A stretch of 64,000 nucleotides of DNA, taken from assembly GCF_029029505.1 (NCBI RefSeq), contig NZ_JAKJSD010000006.1, positions 1-64,000 of the forward strand, written 5' to 3'. Within the stretch, counting starts at the first letter, position 1; each line of letters begins with the position of its first letter. Shown piece after piece: positions 43,573 through 50,041 of this stretch. The notes under the pieces are model-generated. The model had not been told where the DNA came from. It saw only the letters and a list, made by a program, of their open reading frames with translations, and did not search any database. Position numbers and translations under genes: made by a program. This DNA comes from Ancylomarina sp. DW003. Its GTDB lineage: Bacteria > Bacteroidota > Bacteroidia > Bacteroidales > Marinifilaceae.

Positions 43573-45819
43573 CTAATTAACAATCACAGTTCCATTATAA
43601 GCTTTATTTAAAGCATCAGATAACCAAGTTGGCTTTGCAAAGCCATTACCCGCACCTGTTGCGTTCGATTTTTCGGTAAATGGTAATCCTGAAACAGCTT
43701 TATCTGTATTACCTGTTCCCATCTGATCAAATTTTACGTTCGTAATGACGATGTCACCAGCAGCAATTCTAGCAGCAGCATCGGTATCACTCGATGATGC
43801 ATAGAAATAAGCCTGTCCTTTATTATCAGCTAAACCACCAATTACGATATTATCGATATTCATTTTACCAGCACCTTCTTTCAAGTAGAATGGTTTCTCA
43901 CCCATTCCAAATACAGTTAAGTTCTTTAAGGTTGCATCAGTCATTGGTGTTGCAGCTCCATTGTCACCATTATTTGATCCTTCGATCCCTGACTTAGCAG
44001 AATTTACAGACATCCAATTCATGCCAGTACCAGACCAGCCATCAGCGAAGTCGATTCCATCGTCACCACTTTCGTATGAAAGTAAGTAAGAGGCATCAAC
44101 AGTTCCTCCGAAAAACTCCATGCCGTCATCACCTCCTTTATAAGAAACAACATACTCAACAGTTGTACCTGAACCTACTCCGAAAAGTGAAAGACCGTTG
44201 AATTCTTTTTCATTTGTGTACTTGTAACCCGTATATTCTAAACGTAAATAAGAGATCTTACCCGAGTTATCATCAGCTACATCGCCACCATAAGCTAAAC
44301 CTGAAACCTCAGCACCTGCACTGCCTGCATTTGCTTTATTAGTAGGAGCCTTACCACAAACAACAAGTCCGCCCCAAGCTTCTGGCTCAGCTTTTTCACA
44401 TGTCATTACCACTGGAGCATCAGCCGAACCATTCACAAAGATTTTTGCATCTTGTTCTACAGCTATATAACGTACATCCGTGTCTTCAGCACTTACTTCC
44501 GATGCAATAATCACAGTTCCTGCTGGAATTGTTAAACTCGCACCTGCTTTTACCACAACGGCTCCATTCAATACATATATGTTATTTGCATCCAATGTCA
44601 TATCGTTTGTAATATCACCTTCGAAAGCCACTCGTGCAACCACAGGGTCCCCAAATACGGTTGTCGATTCATCAATAGTATTTAATGCATCCGAAACCCA
44701 ATCTGGTTTATTAATTCCACTCCCTGCACCCTTTGCTTCAAGGTTTTCTCCAACTGTTAAGCCACTAACCGCTTTAGTTTGTCCGGCTTTCATATCAACA
44801 AAATTGGCATTTGTAACAATAATATCACCAGCACTTATTCTTGCTGCAGCATCGGTATCGCCAGACGAAGCATAAAAGAATGCTTGCTCTTTCTCAGCTA
44901 CTAAACCTCCAATTACAATATTATTGATATTCATCATTCCGGCACCTTCTTTCAGGTAAAATGGTTTTTCACCCACACCATAAATAGTCACATTCTTTAG
45001 TGTCGCATCAGTCATTGGCGTTGCAGCTCCATTATCTCCGTTATTAGAGCCTTCAATTCCCGACTTAGCAGAGTTCATAGAGAACCAGTAATCACCAACA
45101 CCTGACCATCCGTCAGCAAAGTCGATTCCATCGTCGCCACTATCAACAGATACCAAGTGAGAAGCATTTACTGTTCCTCCAAAGAACTCGATACCATCGT
45201 CACCACCTTTATAAGAAACTACGTAGTCAACAACAGTTCCAGAGCCTACACCAAACATAGATAGTCCGTTAAATTCTTTTTCGTTTGTGTATTTATAACC
45301 TGTGTACTCCAAACGTAAATATTCGATAGAACCCGAGTTGTCGTTTGGCTTATCGCCACCATAAGCTAAACCAGAAACCTCAGCTCCTGCGCTACCTGCA
45401 TCAGCTTTATTGGTTGGAGCATATCCACAAACAACTAAACCTCCCCAAGCTTCCGCTTCTTTCACAGCCGAAGTCATTACAACTGGTGCCGAAGCAGTAC
45501 CTTTAATATAAATTTTCGCTCCTTGCTCTACCGCAATATATCTTACATCAGCATCGCTTGTCGAAGTTGCAGTGGCCTCAATTCTTGTTCCCGCTGGAAT
45601 CGTTAAACTTCCTCCTTTTTTTACTATTAATGCACCTGATAACTTATAGGTTTTTGATGCATCAAGACTAATTTCTTCACCATCCTTTATTTCACCTTTA
45701 AAATCTTCAGAGTTGAATTCCCCTTCAGGTTTTGGTGTTGGTTTAGGATCATCATCATCCGAACAACTTGAGAAGCCAAGTACCGAAACTGCCAATAAGG
45801 CCAATAATAACTTTTTCAT
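43573..45819 (-). CDS. surface lipoprotein with two tandem ~357-aa repeats
   Basis: A 748-residue lipoprotein: the signal peptide ends FSSC (Cys19), and the next residues are SDDDD, the acidic tract that acts as a surface-export signal in Bacteroidota. The rest is two copies of one ~357-residue unit (about 35-395 and 396-748). Each has LTIPAGT, DVRYIAVEQ, EAWGGLVVCG, RLEYTGYKYTNEKEFNGL, YKGGDDG.EFFGGTV, SGDDGIDFADGWSG and SGIEGSNNGDNGAATPMTDA. Repeating short strands with Gly/Asp turns suggest a right-handed beta-helix. It is 52 nt downstream of the TonB receptor and is presumably its surface partner. No catalytic motif was recognised. Confidence 0.8.
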   Translation of the reverse strand: MKKLLLALLAVSVLGFSSCSDDDDPKPTPKPEGEFNSEDFKGEIKDGEEISLDASKTYKLSGALIVKKGGSLTIPAGTRIEATATSTSDADVRYIAVEQGAKIYIKGTASAPVVMTSAVKEAEAWGGLVVCGYAPTNKADAGSAGAEVSGLAYGGDKPNDNSGSIEYLRLEYTGYKYTNEKEFNGLSMFGVGSGTVVDYVVSYKGGDDGIEFFGGTVNASHLVSVDSGDDGIDFADGWSGVGDYWFSMNSAKSGIEGSNNGDNGAATPMTDATLKNVTIYGVGEKPFYLKEGAGMMNINNIVIGGLVAEKEQAFFYASSGDTDAAARISAGDIIVTNANFVDMKAGQTKAVSGLTVGENLEAKGAGSGINKPDWVSDALNTIDESTTVFGDPVVARVAFEGDITNDMTLDANNIYVLNGAVVVKAGASLTIPAGTVIIASEVSAEDTDVRYIAVEQDAKIFVNGSADAPVVMTCEKAEPEAWGGLVVCGKAPTNKANAGSAGAEVSGLAYGGDVADDNSGKISYLRLEYTGYKYTNEKEFNGLSLFGVGSGTTVEYVVSYKGGDDGMEFFGGTVDASYLLSYESGDDGIDFADGWSGTGMNWMSVNSAKSGIEGSNNGDNGAATPMTDATLKNLTVFGMGEKPFYLKEGAGKMNIDNIVIGGLADNKGQAYFYASSSDTDAAARIAAGDIVITNVKFDQMGTGNTDKAVSGLPFTEKSNATGAGNGFAKPTWLSDALNKAYNGTVIVN

Positions 45820-45871: not shown

Positions 45872-48598
45872 CTAGAAGGTATAGCTTAAGCCCATGCTTA
45901 GTTTCACCCCTTTATTATAAGATTTCACAAGCCAATCCTGACTCGTATTTTCCTGTGTTCTTTCAATGTCTTGATTAAGTATATTCTTTGCTGAAAAGCT
46001 TAAGCCCCATCGCTTAATTTTTGATTTCAATACAAAATCAAGTGTGTGCACAGCTTTATCAACTTGATTACCCAAACTTGAATAGCCAATCAGATTCAAG
46101 CGATCGGAAACATAGCCATAAATCAAAGTCGATGTCACTGAATTTTGCCCGTCATTCCATGCATATTTATAAGTCAAATCTGCATTCGCAATCATTGGAG
46201 CAGCTCCCTGCAATTCTTCCTCATCCTTATTAAAGTTGGCATTGAATTGCCCTTTAGTTTGGCTAATGATTTTATCTGCATTCAATTCTTGCTTGGTTTC
46301 CATCAAAGTTAGGTTGGTGCTTAGAGATAATTTCCTGGTCGATTTCTCTGATGAGATAGACCATAAATCCTTTTTCAACTCAAACTCTAAGCCATATAGA
46401 TAAGCCCAATCGCCAGTGTTGGCATAAGTAAATTCGTTACCAGCAGAGGCTCTTACAAATTTGTTTATAGGATCGATTATATATTTACCAAAAGCAGCTA
46501 CGGAAATCAGTTCACTTGGTTTAGGAAAGAATTCCCACTTAATCTCGCCATTGTAATTGGTTGATGGTGTTAGAAAAGGATTACCAACCGTAACATCGGT
46601 AATACCTTCGAAAAGGAATAAGGCTGTTTCTTTAAACTGAGGAAGTGTGTATGTCATACTTGTTGCAAATCTTAAGTTCGATTTGTCATTCAAGGCATAT
46701 CTTAAAGATAGGTTTGGTAACACTTTCAACTCAGTAAACTCTTCTTCTCCTTTTCCTAATGAAGTTTTGTATTCAATTTGCTGATTGACATTCTCTACCC
46801 GAAAACCAATTAGAGCCAAAAATCGAGAATTAAAATTGTATTCTAAACTGGCAAACCCAGCGTTAATAACTTGTTCGCCATCATAAGTTGATAAGCTTAC
46901 AAAATTGTTTGATAGCACGCGAAGGTCAAACTTATCATTCTGAAGGTTTTGATTGTTGAAATAGGCATCCACATCTAAAACATCAACCAACTGATTCGTT
47001 TTTATCTTGTGGTTAAATTGAGTGGCTTCGAATGCTCTTTTCTTAAATTTACCTGAATATCCGAAAGTAATTTTCCCTTTATAATCTGCGTCATCAAAAC
47101 CTTTACCAAACTTATAATCCAGGCTCAAGTTTGTAGCCAACTCGTCTTCAGTTAAATCATGGAAATACCTGTTATTATTGGCTTGATCGTTTGTAGCAAA
47201 CATCTTCTCGTTCTCATCTTCACCTTCCAGAGTATTGTGTCTTCTATCGGGAACAATATTATTTACTGTATTGTATGCAACACCCCAATTCAGATCCATA
47301 TCCTTTTTCAGCTTATGCTCTCCTAAAAGTTGGTTAACAAGAACTGTGTTCCTTTCATATTCGGCTCTTCGCACATAAGCTCCAAGCTCTGCTAAATCGA
47401 AAATTGTTCCTCGTAAATTCTTTAGTGTTTGTTCTGATGTATTGAGTAGAATTGAATTGTAGAATAGTTTATTCGATGCCCAATTGTAGTTCAAATTCAA
47501 CATGCCTGTTGTTTGCGTGTTGTACTTAAATTGCTCCCCCTCCAGATCGGTTCTTACATAGTCGCTCCCATTAACTTTTCGTTGTAGTAGATCGCTATAT
47601 GCATATTCATTGTCGAATGAAAGACTAGCAAAAGCATTTAAGTCTGAATTTTCGAACTTAAAACTTTTCCCTCCTGATAGAGAAAAATCAAAATTTGGAT
47701 AAACCCTCTTTTCTTCAGGGTTCCAAGTGCTTTCAAAATCGTAAACGCTCAAATCTTGTGGGTAGTTAAAATCATCAAAGCCTAAACTTCCAGGCCCATC
47801 GCCCAAATAAAATTTATCGGCATCGGCTAAACTTAAATTATAACCCGATTTCAAACCAATCTTTAAGAAACGATTTCCCGAATGGACTTTAGAAACAACA
47901 TTAATATTCGCTCCTGCAAAATCGCCATACAAATAGGCCGTCGAAACCTTTTCAACATCAACAAACTCAATAATATCTGTTGAAAACAAGCCGAGATCAA
48001 TGTTTTTTAACTCTGCATTATTAGAAGGTAATGGTAAGCCATTCAACGTTGTTGTATTATAACGATCACCTAATCCACGAACACTTAAGCCCTTATTCCC
48101 TTCTTGCTTACTCACTCCAGTGATTTTACTGGCTGCTGAAGCGGCATCGGATATACCTTGAGTGGCTAACTGTTGGGCTCCTATTGATTGTTTCATCACC
48201 GATGATTTCTTCTGATCCATCAATAAAACTAAAGCCGATTCTCGTTTAGCTTTAGCTATTACCACAACATCGTTCAGCTTTACAGCCGATTCTCCCATTT
48301 CAAAATTGATAACTGGTGCATCTCCTTCAACAATTTTGATATTTTCTTTAACAACTTTCTCGTATGAAATAAAAGAACACACCAAATTAATTGTCCCTAC
48401 CGGTACATTATTAAGTATATAGTTGCCGTCAAAATCAGTTACTGTCCCAATTGTTGTTCCTTCCACATAAACCGAAGCCCCAATTAATGTTTCTCCAAGT
48501 TTAACGTCTTTCACATTTCCGGTTACGCTCGTTTTTTGAGCAAACGAAGTCAAAAAAGATAGGTTTAATAATATAAGTATGAATACTTGCTTTGTCAT
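45872..48598 (-). CDS. TonB-dependent receptor paired with the duplicated lipoprotein
   Basis: A 908-residue outer-membrane receptor. A signal peptide (about 1-20, ending SFAQ) is followed by a carboxypeptidase-like domain (about 23-105, GETLIGASVYVEGTTIGTV). The plug (about 125-240) contains SVRGLGDRYNTTTLNGLPLP and GDFAGANINVVSK. The barrel ends in GVKLSMGLSYTF. It differs from SusC-type receptors in lacking their long barrel, and the partner is not SusD-like, so glycan import is not indicated. The upstream region carries 11-bp-phased TTAACAT repeats. Substrate unknown. Confidence 0.88.
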   Translation of the reverse strand: MTKQVFILILLNLSFLTSFAQKTSVTGNVKDVKLGETLIGASVYVEGTTIGTVTDFDGNYILNNVPVGTINLVCSFISYEKVVKENIKIVEGDAPVINFEMGESAVKLNDVVVIAKAKRESALVLLMDQKKSSVMKQSIGAQQLATQGISDAASAASKITGVSKQEGNKGLSVRGLGDRYNTTTLNGLPLPSNNAELKNIDLGLFSTDIIEFVDVEKVSTAYLYGDFAGANINVVSKVHSGNRFLKIGLKSGYNLSLADADKFYLGDGPGSLGFDDFNYPQDLSVYDFESTWNPEEKRVYPNFDFSLSGGKSFKFENSDLNAFASLSFDNEYAYSDLLQRKVNGSDYVRTDLEGEQFKYNTQTTGMLNLNYNWASNKLFYNSILLNTSEQTLKNLRGTIFDLAELGAYVRRAEYERNTVLVNQLLGEHKLKKDMDLNWGVAYNTVNNIVPDRRHNTLEGEDENEKMFATNDQANNNRYFHDLTEDELATNLSLDYKFGKGFDDADYKGKITFGYSGKFKKRAFEATQFNHKIKTNQLVDVLDVDAYFNNQNLQNDKFDLRVLSNNFVSLSTYDGEQVINAGFASLEYNFNSRFLALIGFRVENVNQQIEYKTSLGKGEEEFTELKVLPNLSLRYALNDKSNLRFATSMTYTLPQFKETALFLFEGITDVTVGNPFLTPSTNYNGEIKWEFFPKPSELISVAAFGKYIIDPINKFVRASAGNEFTYANTGDWAYLYGLEFELKKDLWSISSEKSTRKLSLSTNLTLMETKQELNADKIISQTKGQFNANFNKDEEELQGAAPMIANADLTYKYAWNDGQNSVTSTLIYGYVSDRLNLIGYSSLGNQVDKAVHTLDFVLKSKIKRWGLSFSAKNILNQDIERTQENTSQDWLVKSYNKGVKLSMGLSYTF

Positions 48599-48647: not shown

Positions 48648-48736
48648 CGATTTTAGACAAGAAAGACGACAAGCATGTTAAATTCTCTTTAAGTGAAAAT
48701 TATCAAAACAGAAAAATCATGTTAAATATATGTTAG
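48648..48736 (-). promoter_or_regulatory. phased TTAACAT repeats upstream of the TonB receptor
   Basis: On the minus strand TAACAT occurs at 48735-48730, 48724-48719 and 48680-48675, offsets of 11 and 44 nt, so all share one helical face. The last copy is followed after 19 nt by TAAAATCG (48655-48648), a weak -7. This is consistent with an OmpR/PhoB-type activator replacing the -33 contact. Confidence 0.5.
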
Positions 48737-49020
48737 AGCAAAGTAAATTGTTAAACCAAGCTAAAATTCAGATTAATCAGAGTTAGAGAGATTATTGTTC
48801 TTCCCTCTTAAAACTCCAATAAATTCGGACACTTCAGAATCCAAACCAATGTAAATTCTCTAAAATTACCTTTTAGCCTATTCTCAGTTGAGAAATAGAA
48901 TTCCCCTGTCTTTTTGAGGTTTCAAAACTTTGAAGACATCTCTTTAGAACACTCTACAATGACTATGAATAGGCTCTTTCATAAATTGAAACCACAATTT
49001 AACGCTCAATTTTCAGATGG

Positions 49021-49087
49021 TTAATCATTCCTTAACATATTGGTAAATTTCTTTTAATCAACCCAGATAGGGATTCATGTATTTTTG
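49021..49087 (+). promoter_or_regulatory. four 11-bp-phased boxes plus exact -7 element
   Basis: TTAATC (49021), TTAACA (49032), GTAAAT (49043) and TTAATC (49054) repeat at exactly 11 bp. The last box ends 20 nt before TATTTTTG (49080-49087), an exact TAnnTTTG, so it occupies the -33 position. This is the layout of a PhoB-class activated promoter for the 49190 gene. Confidence 0.6.
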
Positions 49088-49189: not shown

Positions 49190-49564
49190 ATGATGAAAAA
49201 GATCGTATTCCTTTTTACAGCATTACTTATTTTAGGATTGGCTTCTCAAGCTAAAAATATTGTAACACCTAACGGTGATAAAAAAGTAGAAACAGCAGAA
49301 CTGGCTACAATAAATACAACTAGCCTTTCAGGTGTCGTTTTAGATAACGAAACTGGCGAAACATTAACTGGTGTTGCCATACGTTTTGAAGGTTCAGATG
49401 AAGTTGTTTATACCGACTTTGATGGCAACTTTAAGATTGACAACATTGTTCCTGGAAACTACAATATCTTATCTAACTATATTTCATATAGCGACAATAA
49501 GCTTAAAAATGTAAATGTTAACGGGCAGAATAATGTAATTCGTTTAGTTCTAAAAAAAGACTAG
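49190..49564 (+). CDS. exported single CarboxypepD_reg-like domain protein
   Basis: A 124-residue protein with a signal peptide (about 1-21, ending SQAK). A single beta-sandwich of the carboxypeptidase regulatory-like type (about 45-122) starts LSGVVLDNETGETLTGVAI and includes EVVYTDFDGNFKIDNIVPG. This is the same module found at the N-terminus of TonB receptors, but here it stands alone, without plug or barrel. It may be an accessory that contacts the receptor system; that is inference. It is preceded by the 11-bp-phased promoter, and the MORN-repeat gene follows after 9 nt. A second ATG lies one codon inside. Confidence 0.75.
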   Translation: MMKKIVFLFTALLILGLASQAKNIVTPNGDKKVETAELATINTTSLSGVVLDNETGETLTGVAIRFEGSDEVVYTDFDGNFKIDNIVPGNYNILSNYISYSDNKLKNVNVNGQNNVIRLVLKKD

Positions 49565-49573
49565 TTATTACCG

Positions 49574-50041
49574 ATGAAAAAAAGATTTAGCTTAATCCTT
49601 TGTTTCCTAATATACATGCTTATAAATCAAGCATTCTCACAGTCGATAAAAGAAATTGAAGGTTTATATTATAGTGTTGATGGTGACTTATATACGGGAA
49701 CATATACCGAATTCTACGAAAATGGGCACAAGCGTATTGAAATGAACTTATTAGAAGGGAAACGTAATGGAAAAATTACTCTTTTCTTCGAAAATGAAAA
49801 TAAACAGGAAGTTCGCTCCTACATTAAAGGCTTGATGGATGGTACCTGGATTACCTGGAATGATCAATCAATTAAGATTGCAGAAGCTCGATACAAAAAA
49901 AATAAGAAGCACGGTAAATGGTACATTTGGGATGCAAATGGAATCAAAAGGTACGAAATGGAATACGATGAAGGGGAAAAAATTGGAACCTGGCTTATCT
50001 GGGATGAAAATGGGAAACTTATAAAAAAAAGGAAATTCTAA
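49574..50041 (+). CDS. exported MORN-repeat protein
   Basis: A 155-residue protein with a signal peptide (about 1-22, ending QAFS) and about five MORN-variant repeats of the form FYENG.K...Y..G...G.W..W (about 45-150), ending IWDENGKLIKKRKF. Databases often label such proteins YwqK-family antitoxin; nothing here resembles a toxin partner, and the export signal argues against that role. It is co-transcribed with the CarboxypepD_reg-like gene 9 nt upstream. Confidence 0.75.
   Translation: MKKRFSLILCFLIYMLINQAFSQSIKEIEGLYYSVDGDLYTGTYTEFYENGHKRIEMNLLEGKRNGKITLFFENENKQEVRSYIKGLMDGTWITWNDQSIKIAEARYKKNKKHGKWYIWDANGIKRYEMEYDEGEKIGTWLIWDENGKLIKKRKF

Follow-up and report, generated by a model that had tools for sequence, protein, structure and literature searches.

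A four-box array with an 11-bp step upstream of a CarboxypepD_reg-like gene of Ancylomarina sp. DW003, a probable Pho box

The window analyzed, a whole stretch of 64,000 nucleotides from Ancylomarina sp. DW003 of the family Marinifilaceae, contained two divergent pairs of genes around a common intergenic region. On the plus strand, a small secreted-looking CarboxypepD_reg-like protein of 124 amino acids, here designated W (49190-49564), was followed by a MORN-repeat protein (49574-50041), which was also found after W in the 12 relatives compared. Divergent from W, the minus strand encoded a TonB-dependent receptor (TBDT) with a CarboxypepD_reg extension (45872-48598) and a lipoprotein-like receptor partner (43573-45819) that was assigned to no Pfam family and gave no match in a sequence search against solved structures up to an E value of 1. 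W was 36% identical to the N-terminal CarboxypepD_reg extension of the receptor (48317-48538), as if it were a free-standing copy of that extension.

Upstream of W, direct reading of the plus strand confirmed the four boxes 11 bp apart reported in the preliminary description: TTAATC (49021-49026), TTAACA (49032-49037), GTAAAT (49043-49048), and TTAATC (49054-49059). The fourth box ended 20 nt before TATTTTTG (49080-49087), also as described, and this octamer had the form TAnnTTTG that is characteristic of the -7 element of Bacteroidota sigma-A promoters. As neither TTTG nor TTG was present at 49050-49070, box 4 occupies the place of the -33 element, in line with the earlier proposal. The region thus presented tandem half-sites with an 11-bp step and an array standing where the upstream core element would be, both of which are features of PhoB-dependent promoters. 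A possible weak fifth half-site, AGATAG, was located at 49065-49070. The TAnnTTTG element spans -12 to -5 in F. psychrophilum (PMC9723704), and with the same placement the W transcript would start at about 49092. A palindrome reading of the region (GTTAATCATTCCTTAAC in the window) was rejected, as relatives do not keep the palindrome. The exact four-box string occurred only once in the 4.84-Mb genome. Under a half-site matrix made without the window site the array scored 16.7 bits, a value reached at one of 3,837,720 Markov-1 random positions modelled on the window, with a chance expectation of about 0.03 per window for both strands. Three boxes alone would be no proof, since a looser three-box pattern gave 10 matches genome-wide against 9 in the reversed control, that is, no enrichment.

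Stronger proof of the array than this chance estimate came from its conservation. A search for W over 58 genomes gave 13 clear orthologs including that of the own genome (E <= 1.8e-56), with orthologs present in Labilibaculum filiforme and Marinifilum sp. N1E240; weaker matches in other genomes corresponded mostly to receptor domains. All 13 orthologous promoters kept four nTAAnn boxes with the 11-bp step, the exact gap of 20 nt, and a -7 element of the form TA[TC][TA]TTTG. When these promoters were aligned without gaps over 171 columns, the invariant columns comprised 12 of the 12 TAA positions and 6 of the 6 fixed -7 positions, as compared to 9 of the 153 others; none of the 20 gap columns was invariant, and the flanks were likewise not conserved (Fisher P = 5e-13 for the TAA columns, which is no strict probability because the rows are related). 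The loss of the boxes in orthologous loci, named beforehand as an outcome that would speak against the array, was therefore not seen. The core of the half-site is TAA, commonly within KTAAYA, from which the boxes of relatives drift (ATAAGC, TTAAGG), box 3 being GTAAGT or ATAAGY in these genomes. Thus, the tandem 11-bp boxes of the preliminary description stood whereas its hexamer motif did not hold as written, the conserved form being the looser nTAAnn. Position, phase, and core were kept and little else, as would be expected for protein binding to an array.

A second array, facing the opposite way, was found on the receptor side of the same intergenic region (minus strand, 48676-48747), with units starting at 48747, 48736, 48725, 48714 (weak), 48703, 48692, and 48681. 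A putative receptor -7 element, TAAAATCG (minus strand, 48648-48655), was located 20 nt past the last box and was off consensus. The same gap of 20 nt occurred in 13 of 13 orthologous receptor promoters, together with an off-consensus -7 element (TAnnATCG) and extra boxes upstream. The last receptor box was TTATCA-like, without TAA, in nine of these 13 promoters, corresponding to the genomes outside the genus.

Similar arrays were present at genes for phosphate uptake. The gene pstS was found in all 15 genomes searched, and in the 14 promoters aligned four boxes with an 11-bp step were followed by exactly 9 nt and then TAnnnTTG, a pattern that the fifteenth promoter (G015) fitted as well; in the own genus, the third pstS box (TTTAAA) was one base out of step. 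The distance from array to core element was consequently not that of pst (20 nt at W vs. 9 nt at pstS), and the difference amounted to exactly one repeat unit. This mismatch lowers the identity with the pst arrangement but not the Pho-box reading.

Searching for four TAA cores followed, after the 20-nt gap, by TAnnTTTG, with one mismatch allowed, gave 27 matches in eight genomes vs. 4 in the reversed control. Seven of these corresponded to W itself, genome G004 being without a close W ortholog; eight preceded the same Pit-type phosphate permease, one per genome (8/8); three preceded a MarC gene in the own genus (identified as MarC in G000); and the remaining nine were single. The permease belonged to PF01384 in the three genomes examined (G000, G004, and G008), and its first 22 residues were alike in all eight, bar conservative changes. 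An exact match (G001, C4:33371), listed in one of the eight genomes, preceded a 151-aa protein. In the own genome the MarC-family gene was directly preceded by an array of the 20-nt type (L133:1501-1566, own C2:14317), as it was in two relatives of the genus. The corresponding 9-nt pattern gave 20 matches vs. 8 in the control, with pstS common to all eight genomes. The W promoters of G008 and G012 also matched this pattern with one mismatch, owing to TAAAAT and CAAATT, respectively, at the position of 49065-49070.

A half-site matrix derived only from pstS, applied to both strands of the window, placed the W array first (8.0) and the receptor array second (7.9). With other weights, the pstS matrix again placed the W array first in the window and sixth among the 299,344 positions examined in the own genome. 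When pstS, Pit, and receptor sites were combined and W was excluded, W was also sixth among the own-genome stretches examined, below Pit (in two registers), an array near a Na/Pi-cotransporter-PhoU gene, pstS, and an array near a PQQ-propeller gene. By the pstS matrix, the half-sites of the window array were therefore of the same kind as those of the own pst promoter, although a strict profile missed W: the pstS-array profile (R1) recovered pstS in five of five genomes, the W site was listed in none of them at E values up to 10, and its matches other than pstS in these five genomes were partial and weak. The Na/Pi-cotransporter-PhoU array (L026:6092-6130, own C2, near 108.1 kb) was the second-highest among the own-genome stretches examined; it sits 110 nt before the gene but is oriented away from it, and it is possible that it represents a repressor site or a differently placed site. 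The four-box array near 47.8 kb of own contig C5 (L025:4783-4821) lies between the PQQ-propeller gene and a serine-hydrolase-like gene, and on its opposite strand the 9-nt pattern was matched with one mismatch.

The helical register of the boxes was analyzed at 54 receptor loci outside Marinifilaceae after removal of near-copies, at least one of them (L213) not from Bacteroidota, by testing every TTTG between 25 and 85 nt upstream of the start, which gave 40 sites from 33 loci. The W-promoter phase had a mean half-site score of -0.05, vs. -5.0 or lower for the ten other phases, and was the best at 30 of the 40 sites and in 26 of the 33 loci. The 994 AT-matched control sites were flat, 109 of them being best at this phase. 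W itself scored 0.65, a value reached by 9 of the 994 control sites at any phase. This indicated that promoters of this receptor widely carry an array in the register seen in the window. In these distant promoters, boxes occurred at -15 and at -26 offsets. It may be that PhoB-type arrays of Bacteroidota are locked in register to the -7 element, with two slots one unit apart either of which can replace the -33 element, a conjecture for and against which we see about equal weight.

The presence of boxes at both offsets, the difference of exactly one unit, and the 9-nt matches in G008 and G012 through the position of 49065-49070 would also be compatible with the same regulator binding five half-sites, the fifth being a degenerate one at that position; the 20-nt gap would then conceal an ordinary 9-nt promoter. 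However, the fifth position is without a conserved TAA in W, receptor, and Pit promoters, and the gap lacks any invariant column among the W orthologs. We consider this arrangement conceivable but doubtful.

A candidate regulator was found in the gene neighborhood. Between the receptor and W, all nine relatives outside the genus that have W carry genes for a histidine kinase and an OmpR/PhoB-type regulator and a ComF-like gene. The own genome has the same kinase-regulator-ComF block on contig C4, the pair being on a separate contig in the genus. The regulator of G008 was 78% identical to that of the own genome (L003). The best NCBIfam model for L003 was the Bacteroides PhoB NF053854, with 208.2 bits against a cut-off of 270, and L003 is called PhoB-type on account of its neighborhood and its similarity; in a sequence search against solved structures it matched ten regulators, such as MtrA and RegX3. 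Among the loci of the lipoprotein (the 80 named ones, which are the best 80 of 515 relatives), an L003-like regulator (at least 55% identity, 200 aa) appeared in 25, or in 23 with a threshold of 57% identity, and a Pit gene in 18; two loci contained both regulator and Pit. In 59 of these best 80 loci, the top array within 300 nt upstream of the receptor was compared in rank with both strands of the entire locus; this receptor array was first in 16 of the 21 loci with an L003-type regulator (two of them Marinifilaceae) and in 11 of the 38 loci without it. An uncultured Prolixibacteraceae (L223:36-13414) displayed a single same-strand cluster that extended from pst and phoU to W, in the order PstS-like protein, two permeases, ABC ATPase, PhoU, regulator, kinase, receptor, lipoprotein, MORN, and W. 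Its W promoter consisted of four boxes, 9 nt, and TATTTTTG; its regulator was just 39% identical to L003.

The own genome contains seven proteins with the Trans_reg_C DNA-binding domain, and half-sites within the OmpR family can look alike, the W boxes not being identical to those of pstS. Another OmpR-family member could thus read the boxes instead of L003, for instance the regulator adjoining pstS, which was also tried as PhoB and dropped: in NCBIfam it is nearest to RprY (284 bits in G000, cut-off 370), and it is pstS-linked, at 1.5 kb or less, in only three of 15 loci, all of the own genus. L003-type regulators, on the other hand, adjoin the receptor and W in all nine relatives outside the genus that have W and recur at the lipoprotein loci mentioned above, which makes a different reader unlikely. 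Array-like boxes were also noted upstream of the kinase gene in the RprY-like pair adjoining pstS (L023:9320-9390, minus strand, own C9), with TAAATTTG about 21 nt past them by eye and in inexact phase.

The four boxes are best explained, with a probability of roughly 0.85, as a Pho box that would activate the W and MORN genes on phosphate scarcity through a PhoB-type regulator. The preliminary description suggested that an activator of the OmpR/PhoB family acts on tandem 11-bp half-sites; this is supported by the like boxes at pstS, Pit, and the TonB receptor, and the hint at phosphate in that description gains weight from these same boxes together with the PhoB-type kinase-regulator pair adjoining W in all nine relatives outside the genus that have W. 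The regulator of the window array is, judging from sequence comparison, very probably PhoB-type; that PhoB binds the array, that phosphate governs it, that the effect is activating and not repressing, and where transcription starts are what we infer. On phosphate scarcity, phosphorylated PhoB would line up on the boxes in head-to-tail order along a single face of the DNA, and the PhoB-type protein on four half-sites would substitute for the -33 contact of sigma-A. Sigma-A RNA polymerase would then be recruited to TATTTTTG, turning on the W and MORN genes, and the opposite-facing array of the same intergenic region would turn on the TonB receptor and the lipoprotein. At pstS, the last half-site lies one turn nearer to the -7 element than that of W.

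A PhoB-type protein bound to the array might instead act as a repressor by covering the -33 region, on whose position box 4 lies, and in B. fragilis a phosphate transporter, BF4351, drops in low phosphate (PMC3547664). There is, however, no -33 element to block at this position, the same arrangement precedes phosphate-uptake genes, and in F. johnsoniae phosphate depletion induces a receptor-lipoprotein pair (PMC8115612), so that repression appears very improbable. Chance TAA repeats in AT-rich DNA, to which the lack of excess of three-box patterns over the reversed control might point, can practically be dismissed given that the TAA columns are invariant in 13 of 13 orthologs while the gap is unconserved, and that the same gap recurs at other genes (27 matches vs. 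4).

In E. coli, the Pho-box array replaces the -35 element and leaves a gap of about 10 nt, as compared to 20 nt here; the half-site is CTGTCAT in E. coli vs. KTAAYA here, where TAnnTTTG is the promoter element. The E. coli PhoB Pho box is likewise made up of 11-nt direct repeats, to which an OmpR-family regulator binds in head-to-tail order (PMC4415409). In F. johnsoniae, the phoBR locus contains a TonB receptor (pf07715, pf13715) and a lipoprotein that resemble the receptor pair of the window and are induced on phosphate depletion, with table values of 8.02 and 9.91 that we take as log2 induction (PMC8115612); the consulted parts of that paper hold no description of a box or promoter at this locus, and the likeness to the window is one of description. 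PhoB of B. fragilis binds the pst promoter, and the pst genes are in one table group with BF3715, a phosphate/sulphate permease; no site sequence, consensus, or motif was found in the sections consulted (PMC3547664). The DAP-seq motif of PhoP from Riemerella anatipestifer, another Bacteroidota genome, is most conserved over TTTAACA, but this regulator gave 583 peaks and is described as ArcA-like (PMC9603813). Predicted Pho boxes are marked at plcP clusters of marine bacteria, in a source where the parts seen gave no sequence (PMC4796936). In the open-access literature, leaving aside subscription papers and preprints, we found no Pho-box sequence for Bacteroidota. The Pho box is therefore of a known kind, and its Bacteroidota form, which we did not find described in that literature, is a variant marked by TAA cores in the half-sites, a TAnnTTTG element, and two gaps that differ by one unit.

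For Bacteroidota, these results suggest a Pho-box rule in which KTAAYA-like half-sites every 11 bp end 9 or 20 nt before TAnnTTTG. Such a rule would allow prediction of the phosphate regulon in this phylum, where phosphate-induced genes are reported. If the arrays are indeed locked in register, the 9- and 20-nt slots would constitute a positional code, which may set promoter strength or the order of induction. The question of how an OmpR-family activator works at the unusual -33/-7 promoter also becomes testable, and the phosphate supply would be tied to a TonB receptor, a lipoprotein, and a small CarboxypepD_reg protein.
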